Below are positions 8,990 to 63,992 of a stretch of DNA of 64,000 bases, in pieces; positions within the stretch are counted from its first letter, which is position 1, and each line of letters opens with the position of its first letter. This DNA is from a virus. The stretch is from positions 1-64,000 of IMG/VR virus record IMGVR_UViG_3300006802_000089. One strand, written 5' to 3'. A model generated the notes under the pieces. The model saw nothing but the letters and a program-made list of their open reading frames with translations. It had not been told where the DNA came from and did not search any database. Position numbers and translations under genes: made by a program.

Positions 8990-10663
8990 TTAAAGAGTCT
9001 CCAATCCTCTCACATATACTTTTCCGTAGAATTCTGGACGAACTACTTTTTTAGCATATCGTGTCATCACACCTTTTCTTGGAGTGAAGTTTACAGGATC
9101 ATAAACTAATGGAGTCATGATTAAAGGAACATATGGAGCAAATACCGCACCAGTTTCAAGGAACTGCGCACCTCTGAAGCCCATAAGTATAATGTTCTCT
9201 TTCATGTAAGGGTTTTTATAAACTGTGTATCTGTTATTGATAGCACCAATTTTTTGAACACCTGCAGCAAATTCCATTTTGTTACCGTCTGTGTCTGCAG
9301 CAAATCCTGGAATAGATTCCAAAATAGTTGCAACAGCTGGACTAGTTACCAAGAAGTTTGCGCCACCTCTTAAAGTTTTTTGGTGAATTCTGTTAGAAAC
9401 TTTTTGAAGTTTAGTTCCTAAAGTTTGGAACCATCCTCCTTGAGTGTTATAGAAACCACCAGTAGTAACAGATGTTTGATCGAAATTAGATCCGTTCCAA
9501 ATTTCGTTGTTTACTGCTGACCAATACTCAGTAGTTGGAGCTGCAGAAATCAACATGTCTAGAATCTCTAAATCGATTTCCATTGATACATACTCAGAAA
9601 GCATTGAAGTCAATTCTGCTTCAGCGTCAATTGAGTGGTAAGCGTTAAGGTCTTGAGCGAACTCAGGAGTCCATACAGCTTTCAATTTACGTGTTTTAGC
9701 AACAATTGGCTCTGATTGCATTTCCAAGTTAACTTCTGGAATGTCAATGTCTGTTCCATCATCAATACCAGTTCCAGCGCCAGATCCTTTGAATGGATTA
9801 GCATCTTCAAAATCACCTCTAGTAATATCAGTAGGTTGTTTGCTATAGTTAACATTTAATCCGCTGTTATCGATTGCAACTTGAATGTCACTAGCGATTG
9901 ATGCAGTTACTACAAATGATGCAGTATAAGAAGTGTCAATTACACTAAATGCTTGAACTGGTACAATCTCAGTTGATCCAGAAATAAGTGTAAAAGAACG
10001 TACAGCATATAAATCAGCATCTGTTGGTACTGGTACTGTTAATACAAACCAGTCTGCAGAGTTATTAGTATATGTACTATCAAAATTAACTGACGCAGAT
10101 GGTACTGCTGCTGGAGCTGCAGCTGAACCTGTAGATGCTCCTGCAGATACAGTAGCAGCAACGCCTGTTACATTCTTGATAGAATATCCAAATCTACCTG
10201 CTCCATAAAGACCGTCAGAAGCTTCATCAGCATTAGTAACACCGAATAAAGAGTCATCGGCACCTGGAGATGCAAAAGGATGTCCTGAAGGATTTGGATC
10301 TACATCTTTATTAAATCCAGGACGCTCTGTTCCATATTTAAAATCTAGGTAAAATACAAGACCTGATGGCAAATTCATTGGTTGTACAGAAACGAATTCT
10401 TTAGCTGCAAATTCAGCAAAAATTCTTCTTACCAATGGAAGTGCAACACCAGCCCACTCTTCAGAACCTTCTGCGGTTCCTGTAGCTGAAGCTTCTTTTA
10501 CCAATTGTCTTGCTTGGTTTTCAAGCAATTGAGCCATTCCGGCCATTTCAGTCTCAGAACGAAGTCCTTCTAAAAGACCTGTTCTTTGCCATTTTTGTAC
10601 TAGGGGCTTAGCTGCTACAGTTTGGTTTGGAGCTTTGCCGCCTAAAAGACTTTTCATGTCCAT
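8990..10663 (-). CDS. Major capsid protein, gp23-like
   Basis: A 557-residue protein in the T4 order gp21-gp22-gp23 and close to gp23 in length (521 in T4). Recognisable regions are the N-terminal scaffold-contact/propeptide part, 'MAGMAQLLENQARQLVKEAS' (residues 40-59), 'EINLEMQSEPIVAKTRKLKA'-like text (here VNLEMQSEPIVAKTRKLKA, about 320-340) and 'NRIHQKTLRGGANFLVTSP' in the C-terminal half. A candidate gp21 cleavage site is LLE at 30-32. It forms the hexameric shell. Strong expression is expected; a stable terminator follows it. The start could be the first or third codon (MDM). Confidence 0.93.
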   Translation of the reverse strand: MDMKSLLGGKAPNQTVAAKPLVQKWQRTGLLEGLRSETEMAGMAQLLENQARQLVKEASATGTAEGSEEWAGVALPLVRRIFAEFAAKEFVSVQPMNLPSGLVFYLDFKYGTERPGFNKDVDPNPSGHPFASPGADDSLFGVTNADEASDGLYGAGRFGYSIKNVTGVAATVSAGASTGSAAAPAAVPSASVNFDSTYTNNSADWFVLTVPVPTDADLYAVRSFTLISGSTEIVPVQAFSVIDTSYTASFVVTASIASDIQVAIDNSGLNVNYSKQPTDITRGDFEDANPFKGSGAGTGIDDGTDIDIPEVNLEMQSEPIVAKTRKLKAVWTPEFAQDLNAYHSIDAEAELTSMLSEYVSMEIDLEILDMLISAAPTTEYWSAVNNEIWNGSNFDQTSVTTGGFYNTQGGWFQTLGTKLQKVSNRIHQKTLRGGANFLVTSPAVATILESIPGFAADTDGNKMEFAAGVQKIGAINNRYTVYKNPYMKENIILMGFRGAQFLETGAVFAPYVPLIMTPLVYDPVNFTPRKGVMTRYAKKVVRPEFYGKVYVRGLETL

Positions 10664-13068: not shown

Positions 13069-13707
13069 TTATATTCTGCATTTTCCGTCTTCGCATAAAA
13101 TAGAAGTTATAATTTCATGCACATGTTGATATTTGTTTGTTGGAGCTGCGTGTCCGGCACTTTCGAATTGAAATTGTCTTCCGCCTACTGGTGCAATAAA
13201 AGCTCCATGGGTTGAAGGATTGGATACTACATCCCAACAAATAAGTTCAAAATCAGGTTGAACTTCCATTAGTCCTTCTTTTAATTCTTTAACACTGCCT
13301 AAACCTCTTGAAGATATTCCTAATTTAATTCCTTCTTTAAACAATGATTTTAATATTTTTCCTGATGGTGTATCTAATACTTGTAAAGCTCCGCATAAAT
13401 CGTTGCCTTTCCACCAAATTTTTAAAATGTTATGTGACACATTATTCAGGTTAACAACTTGTGATTCTGGATGATCTAGTTCACCTAATGCTCTGTGTTG
13501 CTGAATGAATTCTCGATCATATTTTTTACATTCTCGTTCTAATATCTTTTTAGGATATACTCGTCCGTTTTGATTTTTAGCATCACATCTTTGCAACACA
13601 CCTTCTACTACGAATCCTCCAGGTACTCCGTAACGATCTCCGGTTGATTCATTCAATGTGTTTAACGGATTGAATGTTATAAAATCTTGTATAAGTTGTT
13701 TAGACAT
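13069..13707 (-). CDS. Prohead core protease, gp21-like
   Basis: A 212-residue serine protease of the T4 gp21 type. The likely catalytic His is in ELDHPES (H79) and the Ser in GISSRGLGS (S132 or S133); 'GRVYPKKILERE' and 'DVVSNPSTHGAFI' are further family blocks. In T4 (212 residues as well) the protease is activated inside the prohead, destroys the scaffold, trims gp23 and cuts internal proteins after (L/I)-x-E. Its own N terminus has LNE at 18-20. This enzyme is the expected processor of the targeting-like leaders found on many proteins in this window. Confidence 0.92.
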   Translation of the reverse strand: MSKQLIQDFITFNPLNTLNESTGDRYGVPGGFVVEGVLQRCDAKNQNGRVYPKKILERECKKYDREFIQQHRALGELDHPESQVVNLNNVSHNILKIWWKGNDLCGALQVLDTPSGKILKSLFKEGIKLGISSRGLGSVKELKEGLMEVQPDFELICWDVVSNPSTHGAFIAPVGGRQFQFESAGHAAPTNKYQHVHEIITSILCEDGKCRI

Positions 13708-52249: not shown

Positions 52250-53269
52250 TTATACTAGTATTTGCTGCTGGCAACATTCGACACCAATCTGTTGCAGTGT
52301 TAATTCTTTTGCCTTAGCTTCAACCTCGATGTCTAAGTCGTCAACACCATATGTGTTAGGTAGATCGACAATATAGTCGGAATGAGCCTGCTCTTTGATC
52401 TTGGTGAATGCCTTGTATTCTTTGTGAAATGTAGGCCAATCAGCAATATTGTCCATGCTGATGCCGTTATGCTCGAACATTCGCTCGATAAGCAGTTGCT
52501 GTTCGCGTCTGCGAGACTCACTGTAATGAGTGCACTGAGTAACACCGTGCTTAGTCCATGTCTCACGTGCCATGAAGAATGCCTCCTGCTCGGATATGTC
52601 GCCGGTATTGAAAGTGTGATGCCAATAGTCAAACGTAATAGGAATATCGGTATGCACATGCACCATCTCATACAATTCACGCACAGAATACAAAGAAGCC
52701 TTGTCGTCATTCTCTAGCACAAGACGTGCACGTAAGCCGTCAGACAATCGTGAATAGTTTTGAAGCCATCGTGCAATAGTGCCGGACTTGTCGCCGTATG
52801 CTGCGCCTACATGAATATTGATAAGATTGTCAAAACTAGGAGCATAACCCATAAGGTCAAACATTTCGCTGTGTCGTTCGAGACCTATGATGCTGTTGTC
52901 GACAACATCGGCCTTAGGCGAACCTAGTATGTGAAATGGACCTGGGTGTGTAGTTAGACGATGACCATGCGCGCGAGCAAAGTCGCCGGCAGCACGAAGA
53001 TGATGTGTAATTTCATCTAGGCCAGGTAAATCTGTTAGCTCGTAATGATTCCAACGTGGAAATATCTCGGAACCGATGCGAAACAATCGTATGCCTTGCT
53101 GTTCGTTCCACTGCAGTATAGGAAGCAAATCTTTTGCATTTTGCAGAGATATGTCAGATGCTAACTGCATACCACCTTGTCGAAATTTGCGATCAATCAT
53201 GGTGCGACCGGTGCGGATGCCCTGCTTGCCGAGCTGCATGTTGATACAACAATAACCAAATCTAATCAT
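52250..53269 (-). CDS. uvdE: UV damage endonuclease UvdE/UvsE
   Basis: A 339-residue TIM-barrel endonuclease. It starts MIRFGYCCINMQLGKQGIR and has the family blocks GIRLFRIGSEIFPRWNHYEL, HPGPFHILGSPKADVV, GLERHSEMFDLMGY, NIHVGAAYGDKSGTIARW, RLVLENDDKASLYSVRELYE and PITFDYWHHTFN. The metal-binding His and Glu residues lie in these blocks. The enzyme nicks 5' of pyrimidine dimers and other lesions, so it would protect phage DNA in sunlit water; T4 uses the unrelated DenV. The gene is visibly richer in G+C than its neighbours, suggesting recent acquisition. A TTnGGA/TATAWT promoter precedes it. Confidence 0.95.
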   Translation of the reverse strand: MIRFGYCCINMQLGKQGIRTGRTMIDRKFRQGGMQLASDISLQNAKDLLPILQWNEQQGIRLFRIGSEIFPRWNHYELTDLPGLDEITHHLRAAGDFARAHGHRLTTHPGPFHILGSPKADVVDNSIIGLERHSEMFDLMGYAPSFDNLINIHVGAAYGDKSGTIARWLQNYSRLSDGLRARLVLENDDKASLYSVRELYEMVHVHTDIPITFDYWHHTFNTGDISEQEAFFMARETWTKHGVTQCTHYSESRRREQQLLIERMFEHNGISMDNIADWPTFHKEYKAFTKIKEQAHSDYIVDLPNTYGVDDLDIEVEAKAKELTLQQIGVECCQQQILV

Positions 53270-53367: not shown

Positions 53368-54609
53368 ATGATACGGTTAAAACATTTATTAATTGAACAA
53401 ACACGTGTTTCTCCAACTACTTACAACACTGTGTCTATTGAAACAACGATGCAAACTTTGACAAGGGACATTGCTAATTATAATCCTAATACTGGTTATA
53501 TTGCAATAACCAATGGTAATCTATGGCTAGCAACACAACGATCTAATTCTTTAAGAGATTTATTATTGCAGCCAGAAACACAAGAGAGTATTGGTATTAC
53601 AAGACCCATAAACCCTAATTGGATCCGAATCCAGCCACCTACAGTACAAGGAGAAGGCCAAGCCAATCAGAAAGTTGTAGGAACATTACAAGCTAGATTA
53701 TTTCGTCCGGAGGAAAGACAAGAAGAATATCCGTATCAAATCAATTATGAATGGCATGAAATAAATAATGTTCCTCATATCCTTGTTACAAAACAAGGAT
53801 TAGGTGCACCTCAACCGCATAATGTTAATAAAACAGGAGCTAATAGTGAATTGGATGTCAATAAAGATACTGCTGTGTATAATAAAATGAAACAATTCCA
53901 AAACAAAATTCCGGAAAATAATACGAAGATCTTAAGAGCTCTTTCAGGAGCCGGAACAGCACAAGGCCCAGTTTACACGGATACTACATGGGGTATCATG
54001 ATACCAGTACCTCAGGATCTTTATAAATATGTTGCAAAACAAGGAACATTTATATATTTTACAGAAGAACAAAAAGATAGTTATATTAAAACTAAAGATA
54101 TGATAACAAAATATGTAGATAATACAGGAATTAGAACAGGTGAAAACTATACTGATTTTACTCAGGTTCGTGGCAGTGGAGATACTCAGTTTGGAAACAC
54201 AACGGGTAGGTCTGCAACTGCATGGGACAAACAAGGAAATTATAATAATAGTTCACAAGTAAACGTTGTATCATATGATAAATCTACAACTGGTAATGTT
54301 CCTGGCCAGGTTATATCTGGCAAAGAGGAAAAATGGGAAACATTGGATGTTATTAACTTAGATGAAAATTATTTTATAGCAAACATGATAAGTTTGAAGC
54401 CGGATACATATAATACTATATTTGCAAATATAAAAAATATATTAGCAAACAAATTTGAACAAGAACAACTAGCATTCGTAGATTTAGCAGTTACAATACA
54501 AGGATTTGCATCAACAGCCCGTGCTACTAACAGATTATCCGGTGGTCTCACAACTCCTGATCATGATTACGGCGGCCGCGTGCCAGCAAATCTTTGGATA
54601 TATAGGTAA
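53368..54609 (+). CDS. Unknown protein with capsid-targeting-like leader
   Basis: A 413-residue protein on the plus strand. MIRLKHLLIEQ gives a likely gp21 site after LIE10. The body has no motif I can name; it is Asn/Thr/Gln rich, with 'TIEITMQTL'-like text (SIETTMQTLTRDIANYNPN), 'IMIPVPQDLYKYVAKQGTFI' and a conserved-looking end (FASTARATNRLSGGLTTPDH, GGRVPANLWIYR). The last part might be a surface or sugar-binding loop domain. A late-type motif lies upstream. I infer a head-packaged protein. Confidence 0.65.
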   Translation: MIRLKHLLIEQTRVSPTTYNTVSIETTMQTLTRDIANYNPNTGYIAITNGNLWLATQRSNSLRDLLLQPETQESIGITRPINPNWIRIQPPTVQGEGQANQKVVGTLQARLFRPEERQEEYPYQINYEWHEINNVPHILVTKQGLGAPQPHNVNKTGANSELDVNKDTAVYNKMKQFQNKIPENNTKILRALSGAGTAQGPVYTDTTWGIMIPVPQDLYKYVAKQGTFIYFTEEQKDSYIKTKDMITKYVDNTGIRTGENYTDFTQVRGSGDTQFGNTTGRSATAWDKQGNYNNSSQVNVVSYDKSTTGNVPGQVISGKEEKWETLDVINLDENYFIANMISLKPDTYNTIFANIKNILANKFEQEQLAFVDLAVTIQGFASTARATNRLSGGLTTPDHDYGGRVPANLWIYR

Positions 54610-54631: not shown

Positions 54632-55195
54632 TTAATCAAAAATCGCGGTATAATAATCTTCCCACTCAGTGTAAAAATTTTTTCGGCCAACATAAGATCT
54701 AAACGCAAATCCGGTACCGATATATTTGTTGTTAGGATCTAAAAGTGCATCTCTGTGAGCATCTGATGTCATCCATTGTCGTACATGTAACTCGGCATTA
54801 TGTTTTACCCGCGTTAGAAAATTTCCATTTCCATAAGTAATTACTTCATCCATTCCGTTACCAGAATGTTGATATTTGTTTTTACTCATCCATACCGAAT
54901 GACGTTGAGCTTCTTTCATGAAATCGTCACGAGGAATAAGTGCATTCAATCCTCGTTTCGTTCTTTCATAATTAATGAAACGAATCATGATTTCTCTGTA
55001 TGTTTCGATGTGTTGAAGATTTAACTCTGCAACACTGTCTGCGTATAATAAATCAGACAAATCAACTTCATGATAAGTATCACATAAACTATCTAATAAT
55101 TCAAGATGTACTTGTCTTAAAGAATCTCTATACTTAGTTTGGGAATGTGATAAAGTAACAATCGTTACGGCTAGTATTACTAATAACTTTTTCAT
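54632..55195 (-). CDS. Secreted CAP-domain (SCP/PR1, YkwD-like) protein
   Basis: A 187-residue protein with a signal peptide (MKKLLVILAVTIVTLSHS, then Gln, Bacteroidota style) and a CAP domain from about residue 70: NYERTKRGLNALIPRDDFMK, RHSVWMSKNKYQHSGNGMDE, VRQWMTSDAHRDALLDPNNK and YIGTGFAF. The conserved His and Glu/Asp positions of CAP proteins are present (H94-type in RHSVW, H in QHSGN, H in DAHRD). Bacterial CAP proteins act outside the cell; here it would be made during infection and exported. It is flanked by plus-strand genes and has a TTnGGA/TATAWT promoter. Confidence 0.85.
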   Translation of the reverse strand: MKKLLVILAVTIVTLSHSQTKYRDSLRQVHLELLDSLCDTYHEVDLSDLLYADSVAELNLQHIETYREIMIRFINYERTKRGLNALIPRDDFMKEAQRHSVWMSKNKYQHSGNGMDEVITYGNGNFLTRVKHNAELHVRQWMTSDAHRDALLDPNNKYIGTGFAFRSYVGRKNFYTEWEDYYTAIFD

Positions 55196-55300: not shown

Positions 55301-56749
55301 ATGATTAGATTAGCCGATATACTGAAAGAATCCGAATATGCTCATTACCGCAATCTGCGTTACGGATTAACGGAACAAGAAGAAGGCAATTGGTTTACTA
55401 ACTGGATAAAAGACGCTGGCCAAGAATATGTTAAATATAAAAAAGCTGAAACTGAAGCACATATGGAACTGGCTCGTAAACTATACGAATATCGACATGG
55501 CCTTTTAGATATAGCAGAAATAGCAACTCTTTTCTGGCCTCCGGTATCTGCAGCAATAGGTGCCGCTCATGCTGGACTATATTTTTATGAAGGCGATCCT
55601 GAAATGGGTGTTTTATATTTAGTATTTGCTGGAATGACAGGACTTCCTCCTGCACCAATTAAATGGCTAGCTAAATATATAAAAGCTCTTAAAACCGGCG
55701 ATCAAGTCGTAGCAAAAAGTATTGAACAGGGACTAGGACAAACTGAAAAAAAAGCATTAGAAAAAATGTCTGAAATGGGTGCAAGAAAATCAGGAGAAGA
55801 GGTAGTAAAATGGACATCAAAAGGCCTGGCTCAAAACGCTGATTTTTTTGCTAGAGAGGCATTTAGCAATCAAATAGGCAAATTTGCATCTAAATTGCCA
55901 GCACAATCATTAAAACCATCATATGGTCGAGTAGTATTAAATATACTCAAATATATATTCAGATACGCAGGGAAATTTTTGCTCGGTGGATCTAAGTTTG
56001 TCGGCACACTATATGTATTTCATCATATTTTAAAAGTGTATCATTGGTTATGGGAAACGTATTATTACGTCGGACAGAGTCCAGAAGAATTTAGTAAAGA
56101 ATTAGGATTAGACAACACAATAAATTGGGATTCAGCAGATCCAATATTAAAACAAGTGATTACTGGTGAGTCTACTGAAAAAAATACTATTAAATTATCA
56201 AGTTTAATATCAGAAAACTCAAATATGCCTGATTTCCTAGGAAAAATATTCGATGCAGTCGAAGATTGGTCATCACAATTAGATGAAACGTCAAACTCAA
56301 TTATTGAACTAATGACAACTAAATCAGAGTTGTCTGACAATGAAATTAAATCGATAGCTAAGACTATACTAAGTAAACACATGGATATGAGCAATGCGCC
56401 TAGAAAAAAACGAGCATATATAGATTCTGGTGATGTTACTCAGTCTGTAGCTGCAACTGATCCAAATGCAAAACAAGCTGCAGCTGCATTATACAAGTCC
56501 ATGAAAGGCTTAGGCACCGACGAAACATTGTTGTTTAAAACTTTACAAGACATGATAGATAATCCAACTTGGGGATATCAAGCAGTTGTCGAATTTAATA
56601 GTAACTCAAAATACAATGAGGGTGATGATTTAAAATCCTGGTTAGAAGGTGATTTATCATTTGGATCAGAACGAAAAGCATTGGAAATGCTTGATCAGAT
56701 CATGAATACTGCTAATAATACTAGTAACTCCGGCGGTGGTGGATGGTAA
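55301..56749 (+). CDS. Leader plus hydrophobic region plus annexin-like repeat
   Basis: A 482-residue protein. The leader MIRLADILKE suits cleavage after LKE10, and LTE25 is a second site. Residues 72-120 (FWPPVSAAIGAAHAGLYFYE, VLYLVFAGMTGLPPAPIKWL) and 210-255 are hydrophobic, as in membrane-inserting proteins. Residues 298-305 read KLSSLISE, an internal leader-like site. Residues 392-470 form one annexin-type repeat: AAALYKSMKGLGTDETLLFK, then GDDLKSWLEGDLS, with the GxGTDE calcium loop and the acidic residue about 40 residues later. It ends in a Gly-rich tail. I infer a head-packaged, membrane-active protein. Confidence 0.7.
   Translation: MIRLADILKESEYAHYRNLRYGLTEQEEGNWFTNWIKDAGQEYVKYKKAETEAHMELARKLYEYRHGLLDIAEIATLFWPPVSAAIGAAHAGLYFYEGDPEMGVLYLVFAGMTGLPPAPIKWLAKYIKALKTGDQVVAKSIEQGLGQTEKKALEKMSEMGARKSGEEVVKWTSKGLAQNADFFAREAFSNQIGKFASKLPAQSLKPSYGRVVLNILKYIFRYAGKFLLGGSKFVGTLYVFHHILKVYHWLWETYYYVGQSPEEFSKELGLDNTINWDSADPILKQVITGESTEKNTIKLSSLISENSNMPDFLGKIFDAVEDWSSQLDETSNSIIELMTTKSELSDNEIKSIAKTILSKHMDMSNAPRKKRAYIDSGDVTQSVAATDPNAKQAAAALYKSMKGLGTDETLLFKTLQDMIDNPTWGYQAVVEFNSNSKYNEGDDLKSWLEGDLSFGSERKALEMLDQIMNTANNTSNSGGGGW
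56189..56215 (+). repeat. Repeat A of IKLSSLISE-coding sequence
   Basis: These 27 bases match 56844-56870 at 25 positions and encode the same nine residues, IKLSSLISE. The similarity at DNA level implies a duplication between the two annexin genes. Confidence 0.75.
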
Positions 56750-56751
56750 AA

Positions 56752-56759
56752 TATAAATA
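56752..56759 (+). promoter_or_regulatory. T4-type TATAAATA before the second annexin gene
   Basis: TATAAATA on the coding strand, 9 bases before the ATG at 56769. It is the exact T4 late consensus and the reverse of the motif found elsewhere in this window, so it may or may not be functional. Confidence 0.35.
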
Positions 56760-56768
56760 ATAAAAATT

Positions 56769-58343
56769 ATGATACGATTAAAAAGAATACTAGAACAAAA
56801 ATCTTCATATAGTAACATTGATAAGTTAGATAAAAATTTCGAAATTAAATTATCAAGCTTGATATCAGAACAAATCACAGATACAAATCAAGCCGGTAAA
56901 ACAGTAGACGCAGCTGCGGCAGATTTACACGATTCAATGGATTGGCTGGGAACAGACGAAGACTTATTATTCGCTACTTTAAAAGCAATGGCTGATGAAC
57001 CGGCTTGGGGTCAACAAGTTATCGATCGATTTAATAGTGCTGAGAAATACAGTGAAGGTGATGATTTGAATGATTGGTTGGATGGAGATTTGTCTGGCAA
57101 TGATTTGACAAAAGCAAAGGCGTATATAAAGACCATCGAAGCTGTATCGTCCGATCAACAAGAATCGAAATCGATTGATGAAAAATTAATGCTAGAAATA
57201 AGAGAAAACGCACAACAGCTTTATGGAGCTCCATCTGAAGATTTAGCGGACCAGATATTCGGTTGGCTTTGGTGGGAGAATGGATTAAAGATATTAGGAG
57301 TTTTAACAATTGCGCTGGCTGCAGGTGCTGGCCTGGAGAGGCTGGGGGTGGACCTGAAAAACACTGCCCTAGGTAAGGGTGTTAAAAAGTTACTTGCAAT
57401 ACCGGGATGGATTTTTAAAAAAGCATGGATTAGTGGAGTGTCATGGCCCTTATTCCGAGGTGTTTTAAGAATTCCTTCAAAATATATGCCATGGCTGATC
57501 AAATTTTCAAGTAAAACATTTCAACGAAACTGGATTAAAGAATCGTTATTAAAACCATTTCGCAATGTTATGAATAAATACGAAAAAGAATCCTATGAAC
57601 ATACAAAAATAAAAACATGGATAGACAATATTTCAGTTGCCTTAGATAAAGAATCTGATACTGTAGATGCATTAGTAACCAGTGTATATAATAAACTAAA
57701 AACATCTGCTTATGAAGTATTATATAATCTACGCAATGGAAAGATGTCGCAGTACGCCACCCTGCCGGCCAGCATGGAAGCGGGTTTTGTAGAAATTTTA
57801 GGAGATTTATATCGAATAGATCCAGCAAGATTTGGTAAATCATTTGCAGAAGAGATGATGACAAAATTAGAAGTCACAGCTGAAAGTCGTTCTAAAATTT
57901 TAGCTGAATTAGAAAAGTTTTATCCAAAAGTTGAAAAAGAATCGGAAACAATAATTCGAGCGTACAAAGAATTGCCTACGGCAGTAAAAGAATTACCAGG
58001 ATATGAAAATATATATAACAGATATTCTAACAAAATAGCAAATGCTGAAGAAACAATTGAATTATTATATAATAATATAAAAACTGGAAATTTAGGGCCT
58101 GGTTCCGGACTTCCAAATTACTTTAATCGAATTGCTAACTCGATCGAGCGGCCGTCGACAACCAATCCATCCAAATGGTATAATGAGTTTGGTCAATATT
58201 CTGATAACGTTCGTATTCAAATAGGTTGGGATCCTATTAAACAACGGCCGTTTGACCACGCTGTGAAAAGATTTCAAAACGAGATGAACCGAGATCAGAT
58301 GTTATGGGATCTTAACAATACCATGAAATCAGCTATTAAATAA
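56769..58343 (+). CDS. Leader plus annexin-like repeat plus hydrophobic region
   Basis: A 524-residue protein, partly a rearranged paralogue of its neighbour. Leader MIRLKRILEQ (possible cut after ILE9) and IKLSSLISEQ (26-35, cut after ISE34). Residues 49-123 form the annexin-type repeat: AADLHDSMDWLGTDEDLLFA, then GDDLNDWLDGDLSG. Residues 163-190 (QIFGWLWWENGLKILGVLTI onward) and 200-245 are hydrophobic. The rest (250-524) is helical and charged. Here the repeat comes before the membrane region; in the neighbour it comes after. Short G+C-rich patches (57318-57375, 57745-57785) break the AT-rich codon use. Probably a virion-carried protein. Confidence 0.7.
   Translation: MIRLKRILEQKSSYSNIDKLDKNFEIKLSSLISEQITDTNQAGKTVDAAAADLHDSMDWLGTDEDLLFATLKAMADEPAWGQQVIDRFNSAEKYSEGDDLNDWLDGDLSGNDLTKAKAYIKTIEAVSSDQQESKSIDEKLMLEIRENAQQLYGAPSEDLADQIFGWLWWENGLKILGVLTIALAAGAGLERLGVDLKNTALGKGVKKLLAIPGWIFKKAWISGVSWPLFRGVLRIPSKYMPWLIKFSSKTFQRNWIKESLLKPFRNVMNKYEKESYEHTKIKTWIDNISVALDKESDTVDALVTSVYNKLKTSAYEVLYNLRNGKMSQYATLPASMEAGFVEILGDLYRIDPARFGKSFAEEMMTKLEVTAESRSKILAELEKFYPKVEKESETIIRAYKELPTAVKELPGYENIYNRYSNKIANAEETIELLYNNIKTGNLGPGSGLPNYFNRIANSIERPSTTNPSKWYNEFGQYSDNVRIQIGWDPIKQRPFDHAVKRFQNEMNRDQMLWDLNNTMKSAIK
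56844..56870 (+). repeat. Repeat B of IKLSSLISE-coding sequence
   Basis: Partner of 56189-56215. In this gene it lies near the N terminus, where a protease-cut leader would be expected. Confidence 0.75.
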
Positions 58344-62757: not shown

Positions 62758-62922
62758 TTAGTTTTCTGGTACTGTTATAACAATTTCATTGTCTTTGCGT
62801 TTTAGTTTGAAATCACTAGGTATTAATCGTTCAAGATATTCTTGGTAATACTGATTTCGATCGAACCTTGGTTTCTCAGATTTTTTCTTTTTTTCGGATA
62901 TTATGTCTCGTAAACTAATCAT
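62758..62922 (-). CDS. 54-residue protein with capsid-targeting-like leader
   Basis: I read this gene directly, with the ATG complementary to 62920-62922 and TAA to 62758-62760. It begins MISLRDIISEKKKKSEK; cleavage after ISE10 would release a basic 44-residue peptide (FDRNQYYQEYLERLIPSDF, ending VITVPEN). Its size and basic nature recall T4 internal proteins. Its ATG overlaps the stop of the gene upstream by four bases, and the leader is almost the same as that gene's (MIRLRDILTE). Confidence 0.65.
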   Translation of the reverse strand: MISLRDIISEKKKKSEKPRFDRNQYYQEYLERLIPSDFKLKRKDNEIVITVPEN

Positions 62923-63221
62923 GTAATATTCTGATAATCTAAGTAACGTTCAATGAATTTATATGCTTGTGCGGTATCAAACAGTTTATGTCGATATTTT
63001 AAATAGCCTATGAATTCCTCCGGAGAATCTGAATTGTTTCTCATACTCATTAAAGTGTCATAACGATTCCATGCAGTTATGTCTTCATTATCTACTAAAT
63101 CATCAAGTTGATTTTCTAACCATTCTTCATAGTTACCTAGTATGGTTTCAAAATTATCACGAACCAAATCGACCACATCTTCATGTGCTGTTTCTGTCAA
63201 TATGTCTCGTAATCGTATCAT
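62919..63221 (-). CDS. 100-residue acidic protein with capsid-targeting-like leader
   Basis: It opens MIRLRDILTE and then ETAHEDVV-type acidic text (TAHEDVVDLVRDNFETILGN); a gp21 cut after LTE10 would leave 90 residues, helical and acidic (YEEWLENQLDDLVDNEDITA). No motif is recognised. A late-type motif lies 5 bases upstream. It is the second of three consecutive leader-bearing genes (63992, 63221, 62922), which argues that the leader is a functional unit. Confidence 0.65.
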   Translation of the reverse strand: MIRLRDILTETAHEDVVDLVRDNFETILGNYEEWLENQLDDLVDNEDITAWNRYDTLMSMRNNSDSPEEFIGYLKYRHKLFDTAQAYKFIERYLDYQNIT

Positions 63222-63226
63222 TTAAT

Positions 63227-63234
63227 ATAAATAT
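63227..63234 (-). promoter_or_regulatory. Late-type motif before 62919-63221
   Basis: ATATTTAT on the minus strand, 5 bases before the ATG, in a 15-base gap; the mRNA would have almost no leader. Confidence 0.5.
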
Positions 63235-63236
63235 GA

Positions 63237-63992
63237 TTACATGTTAGGATCGCCAGGTGTATCTATTCCATCGGTAGTGAATTTGACATCGATTGGTTTA
63301 CCTATCGTGCTTTTGCTAGGTACAGGAACGTTGCCTTGCATTATCGGATTAGATTGTGCTTGCAAATCAAACAATACAAACTTACCATGTTTAGTAAAAC
63401 CTACGTTACCTCCATGGGCTTCGCTGAAATTTATATTCATAGCACGCACATCTTGTAACACTTTTTGTCGTTGATCAATTATAGTATTTAACTGATTGTA
63501 CACATCTTGTGTTATGCTATTTTTAGAAAGATCATAATCAATCGATCTTCGAAGATCACTGTCCGGCCGCGATGACGAAAAATACATATATTTAATTCCA
63601 TCCCATGCATCTTGCATTTCTGATGTTAACGGAGTTACGCGATCCATGTATATAGCATATATATGATTATATATAGTTTGAATATCGTTTGAATCTTCAC
63701 TAGGAAGACGAAATGCGGCTAAAGGTCTCACACTATATATATTAATCAGATGTGGACGTCTGGCTCTTTTTGATATTCGAGCAGCTAATGCAGCTTCGTT
63801 CTGATCTGCGGTAAATTTAATTACTTTGCCTCGCTGAGTAGCAATTGCTTGTCCATAATATCCGCCTCCTAGCCATTCTGCCGGCGAATCTGCAAATTGA
63901 TCAAATATCATCTTCAGTGTTTCTGGCTGTCTTAATTCACCATACACTTTGGTCAAGTTCGTTTCATTCAATATTTGTTTAAGTAGTATCAT
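63237..63992 (-). CDS. Kinase-fold protein with capsid-targeting-like leader
   Basis: A 251-residue protein. The leader MILLKQILNE ends in a possible gp21 site (LNE10). Kinase-type motifs follow in order: LGGGYYGQA (41-49, Gly loop), VIKFT with K59, an acidic helix residue E66, HLINIYSV (81-88), a hinge-like IYMDRV (114-119), the catalytic loop NFSEAHGGNVGF (188-199) and LFDLQ (D209). The loop has Glu191 where D-x-H-x-x-N kinases have the catalytic Asp, so activity may be altered or lost. The last 40 residues are Pro/Gly rich. Substrate unknown. Confidence 0.7.
   Translation of the reverse strand: MILLKQILNETNLTKVYGELRQPETLKMIFDQFADSPAEWLGGGYYGQAIATQRGKVIKFTADQNEAALAARISKRARRPHLINIYSVRPLAAFRLPSEDSNDIQTIYNHIYAIYMDRVTPLTSEMQDAWDGIKYMYFSSSRPDSDLRRSIDYDLSKNSITQDVYNQLNTIIDQRQKVLQDVRAMNINFSEAHGGNVGFTKHGKFVLFDLQAQSNPIMQGNVPVPSKSTIGKPIDVKFTTDGIDTPGDPNM

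Follow-up and report, generated by a model that had tools for sequence, protein, structure and literature searches.

What would a bacteriophage do with an annexin repeat? The question is raised by two adjacent genes, here called P1 and P2, in a 64,000-nucleotide stretch of viral DNA (the window; positions 1 to 64,000 of IMG/VR record IMGVR_UViG_3300006802_000089, a virus contig of 74,397 bases). A preliminary description, made from the letters alone, had read the layout of an annexin repeat in both products and proposed a role in membrane engagement at entry. Annexins are familiar from textbooks as eukaryotic proteins that bind calcium and membranes, and are known chiefly from animals and plants. 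Their patchy occurrence in bacteria has so far lacked an explanation, and from viruses none was reported in a survey devoted to them (Kodavali et al. 2014, PMC3894181).

The annexin repeats of P1 and P2

Profile comparisons and structure prediction indicate that P1 and P2 each carry one true annexin repeat. Both open reading frames (ORFs) run as first delimited, and both contain the annexin-layout motifs (AAALYKSMKGLGTDE...GDDLKSWLEGDLS in P1, AAADLHDSMDWLGTDE...GDDLNDWLDGDLS in P2, with a Thr-to-Asp distance of 45 in each). Comparison with the Pfam annexin family PF00191, suggested in the preliminary description, fell short for the window sequences themselves; profiles drawn from their relatives recover both. 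Against a cut-off of 25 bits, whole P1 scores 15 bits, its repeat alone 20.1 bits, and P2 gives no match, leaving both proteins under the Pfam gathering score; a phmmer search of the PDB with P1 finds annexins IV and VI at E ~3e-7. Relatives were gathered by pattern scans of IMG/VR and GTDB genomes that required the GxGTDE motif; several scan matches (e.g. L010, L011, L014 and L018) were chance motifs and were discarded at the hidden Markov model (HMM) step. A held-out HMM of seven phage and Bacteroidales repeats, excluding the window sequences, recovers P1 at E 3e-13 and P2 at E 6e-13, and a larger profile of 29 non-redundant phage and Bacteroidota repeats that includes them (A3) recovers both at E <1e-19. 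Profile searches find a single repeat per protein. Against the PDB, A3 matches 81 sequences, the best 60 of which are all annexins or annexin fusions; the top match, annexin VI (E 8e-76 overall, 3e-13 for a single repeat), aligns over nearly the whole repeat.

Resemblance of this kind could also arise if unrelated helical proteins happened to contain GxGTDE, as the low Pfam scores of the window sequences by themselves and the selection of the initial scans on that very motif might suggest. Because the scans had required GxGTDE, a profile was rebuilt after removing all residues through GTDE; its remaining 53 positions still match annexins (best E 2e-16), with nothing else among the 60 matches listed. 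Furthermore, PF00191 matches 23 of the 29 A3 members at E <0.01, and relatives at two loci (L009 and L125) exceed the Pfam cut-off at 30.7 and 30.9 bits. Recovery of both repeats by the held-out HMM at E <1e-12, the motif-deleted profile and the predicted annexin fold rule out a chance motif as the origin of the resemblance, an account to which we give almost no credence.

The AlphaFold2 model of the P1 repeat, computed with A3, has a mean pLDDT of 94.4 and five main helices (aa 388-401, 408-420, 422-434, 444-451 and 454-467). All 50 Foldseek matches listed from the PDB are annexins or annexin-fusion entries (probability 0.98-1.00, TM-score up to 0.74); their E-values are weak (0.05 and above), as expected because the domain is short (82 residues). 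Among viral structures in BFVD there was one convincing match, A0A6J5RF64 (probability 0.99). In the full-length P2 model the repeat alone is confident, its last helix extending to aa 152, and the remainder is helical at low confidence. The five-helix repeat anticipated earlier is thus what the models predict, and profiles, motif-deleted profile and fold point jointly to annexins rather than to another fold without a profile match.

Over 68 aa the two repeats share 59% identity. They are sisters in a tree of repeats, in which the deep branching of phage versus bacterial repeats shows no clear order. Elsewhere P1 and P2 are unlike save for one short motif, and PHROGs and Pfam searches with the rest of each protein gave no match.

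Annexin calcium is held by the GxGT loop and an acidic residue in the D-E turn, with a canonical spacing of 38-40 from the Thr to this cap. The type II calcium loop claimed for both proteins stands as regards ligand-type residues, which are conserved across the family, but P2 departs from it: P1 has an intact loop and an Asp cap, in P2 the first Gly is a Trp, and the spacing is 45 in both. The cap position, part of no search pattern, is Asp in 21 and Glu in 8 of the 29 A3 members. GxGTD is the hallmark motif of annexins, and the cap position was less conserved in the bacterial annexins surveyed in 2014 (PMC3894181). Since the cap is acidic in 29/29 members, lay outside the search patterns and is less conserved in bacterial annexins, the calcium site in the phage family looks to be under selection.

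Capsid-targeting leaders and the encoding phage

The source phage, which is uncultured, is a member of the T4 superfamily, judged from its gp23-type capsid, portal, terminase and baseplate wedge genes (Table 1 lists the capsid gene); the wedge is 51% identical to that of Microcystis phage Mel-JY01 and 42% to that of Flavobacterium phage immuto. Head targeting in T4 needs no more than the first ten residues, among which positions 4 and 7 serve targeting and 8 and 10 processing, and gp21 cleaves after L/I-x-E (PMC9026906). The leaders MIRLKHLLIE, MIRLADILKE and MIKLKRILTE of the present phage match this geometry. The pattern M-[I]-x-L-x-x-[IL]-[IL]-(x)-E opens 10 of the 100 non-overlapping ORFs in the record, compared with 0.08 expected and at most 2 in 2000 shuffles, and these include P1, P2 and the gene at 53368-54609, whose sole relative in our searches was a 100% identical contig. 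Together with the matching S77 prohead protease in the same genome, this bears out the capsid-targeting-like leaders of the preliminary description.

Only two internal matches to the leader type occur in the record (0.13 expected by chance), and they are the same 9-mer, IKLSSLISE, which precedes the repeat by about 11 residues in P2 and by 81 in P1. Read most simply, the two repeat-bearing segments share descent from one leader-bearing gene and became fused to other leaders; the motif may still be cleaved as a predicted protease site. Taken together, these features suggest that P1 and P2 are most likely packaged in the head, processed and ejected.

Table 1. Features of the two annexin-repeat genes and associated head genes, in window positions.
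Feature	Positions	Strand	Remarks
P1, 482 aa	55301..56749	+	leader and mildly hydrophobic first two thirds; leader-like motif within the protein; annexin repeat C-terminally, before a Gly-rich end
Capsid-targeting-type leader MIRLADILKE of P1	55301..55330	+	I/L-x-E cleavage motif ending at residue 10
Internal leader-like motif IKLSSLISE of P1, aa 297-305	56189..56215	+	predicted prohead-protease site
Annexin repeat of P1, aa 387-468	56459..56704	+	profile match and predicted fold
Type II calcium loop MKGLGTDE of P1, aa 401-408	56501..56524	+	intact GxGT
Acidic cap residue D451 of P1	56651..56653	+	position of annexin V Glu72 ligand
P2, 524 aa	56769..58343	+	leader and second leader-like motif, then annexin repeat and long helix; hydrophobic region at aa 166-196; rest all-helical at low confidence
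Capsid-targeting-type leader MIRLKRILE of P2	56769..56795	+	leader pattern
Second leader-like motif IKLSSLISE of P2, aa 26-34	56844..56870	+	same 9-mer as in P1
Annexin repeat of P2, aa 45-121	56901..57131	+	profile match; model pLDDT about 81-98
Altered calcium loop MDWLGTDE of P2, aa 57-64	56937..56960	+	Trp in place of first Gly
Acidic cap residue D107 of P2	57087..57089	+	Asp at the cap position
Third leader-bearing gene, MIRLKHLLIE, 413 aa	53368..54609	+	candidate co-packaged protein
Prohead protease, Peptidase_S77, T4 gp21 type	13069..13707	-	PF03420 E 9e-35, match at 13189-13656; predicted leader cutter
Major capsid protein, T4 gp23 family	8990..10663	-	PF07068, 254 bits

Leader-type starts also occur in one run of six small genes on the minus strand (62758-63992 on to 66564 of the record; MISLRDIISE, MIRLRDILTE, MILLKQILNE, MISLKHIIEG, MIKLKRILTE and MRLTSLITE), with one leaderless ORF at 65493 preceding the last gene; the run is a cluster of candidate head-cargo proteins. 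A CAP/CRISP-family protein with a signal-peptide-like start (54632-55195, minus strand; PF00188, 44 bits) lies between two leader-bearing plus-strand genes. The phage also encodes a UV endonuclease, UvdE (52250-53269; PF03851, 195 bits), and near the left end of the record (410-2215) three tandem, apparently paralogous proteins of ~198 aa with a common I.DGTG start.

Relatives and the predicted role at the envelope

The repeats of P1 and P2, as far as sequence comparison goes, belong to a so far undescribed phage family in which the domain is known and the setting new; in the open-access literature, subscription papers and preprints lying outside the search, no report of annexins in phages was found. 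A3 matches all 41 IMG/VR virus records gathered by the motif scans, and tblastn searches with P1, P2, the P1 repeat and several relatives against 50,697 phage records gave no annexin-bearing match. Four architectures are represented. In the first, a leader-type N-terminus and a Gly/Ala-rich hydrophobic stretch precede the repeat, often followed by a peptidoglycan (PG)-binding-like C-terminus (L006, L012, L048, L101; in L115 PG_binding_1 is above cut-off at 39.4 bits). The second comprises proteins of about 130-180 aa with one transmembrane (TM) segment and the repeat (L009 with three such genes, L049, L079, L084, L122), typically beside a gene for a TM protein with a PG-binding-like segment, which is over the cut-off in L122 (23.6 bits), sub-threshold in L028 and elsewhere recognized by eye. 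In the third the repeat ends a protein of ~1000 residues in a tail gene cluster (L087, with tail sheath, and L096), and in the fourth it accompanies a leader (L013, L042, L102). The genes at L087:9060-12050 and L096:1069-4017 lie in T4-like tail clusters, placing the repeat also on a probable tail or baseplate component. Adjacent repeat genes recur, in the window, L013/L021, L009 (three), L157 and L161.

Among Bacteroidota, A3 matches 9 of 395 sampled genomes. In six of the nine (G007, G077, G093, G356, G379 and G419), the genes surrounding the repeat gene, this one not counted, have homologues in annexin-bearing virus contigs or among the six loci themselves; these are a 325-616 aa protein, a TM neighbour and endolysins. 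In G162 and G093 the repeat gene lies next to that of a phage lysozyme (130 bits) or a GH108 endolysin (67 bits), and G202 is unlike the other cases in encoding a 530-aa multi-repeat protein. Because these gene clusters are shared with virus contigs, the single-repeat annexins in at least six of the nine genomes are probably proviral. The single-domain and paired annexins described from Bacteroidetes in 2014 look alike, and by analogy with these other genomes we infer a proviral origin for them too, which offers a simple candidate explanation for such odd proteins. A recurrent element of Bacteroidota chromosomes (L168-L175), present in two close copies in one genome (L169 and L170), combines many small TM proteins, an endolysin and an annexin-repeat gene, and is possibly an undescribed provirus group.

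For P1 and P2 we favor a reading, held with confidence evenly divided, in which they are head-cargo (ejection-type) proteins and the annexin repeat is an envelope-binding module. As judged from leader and protease, the MIRL..IL.E leader would bring both proteins into the prohead core, where the S77 protease would cut after I/L-x-E. IKLSSLISE would be a second cut site or a relict leader; a cut there would release the C-terminal 177 aa of P1, with the repeat, from the hydrophobic N-terminal part, and would place the P2 repeat near a new N-terminus. The fragments would then exit together with the DNA. By means of its GxGTDE loop and Asp cap, the repeat may bridge calcium to acidic lipid or another envelope anion, and would thereby hold the hydrophobic helical parts to the host membrane during passage of the genome. 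An envelope role is supported because repeat proteins are richer in hydrophobic segments than their neighbors (23/48 versus 97/499, p 2.5e-5) and are fused to, or encoded beside, PG-binding modules in several lineages. With hydrophobic or TM segments, PG-binding neighbors and the precedent of annexin-bearing toxins discussed below, this architecture makes membrane engagement at entry plausible, and calcium-dependent envelope binding by P1 and P2 may be inferred.

The leaders and prohead protease, which point to the head, are also consistent with a repeat that serves head assembly or packing by binding a prohead partner (scaffold, portal, other cargo or DNA), with calcium perhaps a structural ion and without any part in membrane engagement at entry. 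A structural function is possible for annexin repeats, and the recurrence of adjacent repeat genes suggests repeat-repeat assembly. However, small-gene virus contigs and Bacteroidota loci carry the repeat on a short TM protein beside PG-binding and endolysin genes, a setting to which packing in a T4-type head is inapplicable, and we regard this account as rather unlikely. Alternatively, P1 and P2 could act in the host after ejection, in take-over or counter-defence, with the repeat keeping them at the inside of the cytoplasmic membrane. Alt and IPI, T4-type cargo with capsid-targeting sequences, act in the cytoplasm (PMC9026906). The phage encodes about ten leader-bearing proteins, among which P2 is long and all-helical. 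Against action in the host, Pfam and PHROGs searches found no enzymatic or known counter-defence domain in P1 or P2, the hydrophobic and TM association across relatives suits the envelope better, and free cytoplasmic calcium is normally low; we consider it unlikely.

Several observations also count against P1 and P2 being envelope-binding head cargo. The hydrophobic segments claimed for them are present but only moderate: 19-residue Kyte-Doolittle maxima are 1.39 in P1 and 1.56 in P2, leaving every segment below the usual TM-helix threshold of 1.6. No PG-binding domain was found in the source phage, and the predicted calcium site of P2 may be weak because of its Trp. A3 did not find the repeat in immuto and Mel-JY01, the nearest cultured phages by baseplate wedge, which makes the repeat accessory. 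Finally, a crude leader pattern is not significantly enriched among relatives (7/48 versus 44/499, p 0.15), so head packaging cannot be generalized from it.

More tentatively, and with considerable doubt that all parts hold together, single-repeat annexins may form a virus-borne family for calcium-switched envelope docking, acting as ejected head cargo in T4-like phages and as membrane-anchored virion proteins in Bacteroidota viruses with many small TM proteins, and coupled to PG-binding modules; the 'ancestral' single-domain annexins of Bacteroidetes would then be proviral, and viruses would be candidates for a reservoir from which the annexin fold has spread. The recurrence of annexins in phage proteins, with conserved calcium-site residues and leader or TM parts, points to a role in passage across the bacterial envelope that can be put to the test, and allows calcium dependence of phage entry to be examined for a named domain.

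Comparison with known systems

P1 and P2 share with the T4 internal proteins (IPI-III and Alt) an N-terminal leader, about ten residues long, with L/I-x-E at its end for the S77 protease, cutting here being predicted, but in P1 and P2 the leader motif is present internally too. We know of no T4 internal protein with an annexin repeat. A closer parallel for the domain is found in toxins delivered by Photorhabdus virulence cassettes (PVC), whose single annexin domains were suggested to assist in breaching the membrane of the target (Zhang et al. 2012, PMC3482391), a proposal that is a direct precedent for the envelope role. These toxins likewise carry one annexin domain on a protein delivered by a contractile phage-tail-like device; however, a toxin domain always follows theirs and none was found in the phage proteins, and the carrier here is a phage, with the head as the inferred delivery route.

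The eukaryotic annexins A4, A5 and A6 (PF00191) have the five-helix repeat predicted here and the M-K-G-x-G-T-D-E type II loop, altered in P2; their acidic residue at position Glu72 also has its counterpart, aligned without gaps relative to the D-L of helix D. P1 and P2 differ in having one repeat instead of the canonical core of four or eight in tandem, in the longer distance from Thr to cap given above, in their additional leader and hydrophobic or PG-binding partners, and in being phage-encoded, with individual window sequences below the Pfam cut-off. The bacterial annexins, including the single-domain ones of Bacteroidetes (Kodavali et al. 2014, PMC3894181), resemble them in their single repeats, TM regions and immediate gene pairs. 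Compared with that survey, single-repeat genes are found here in about 40 virus records, and several of the Bacteroidota cases lie in clusters shared with them.

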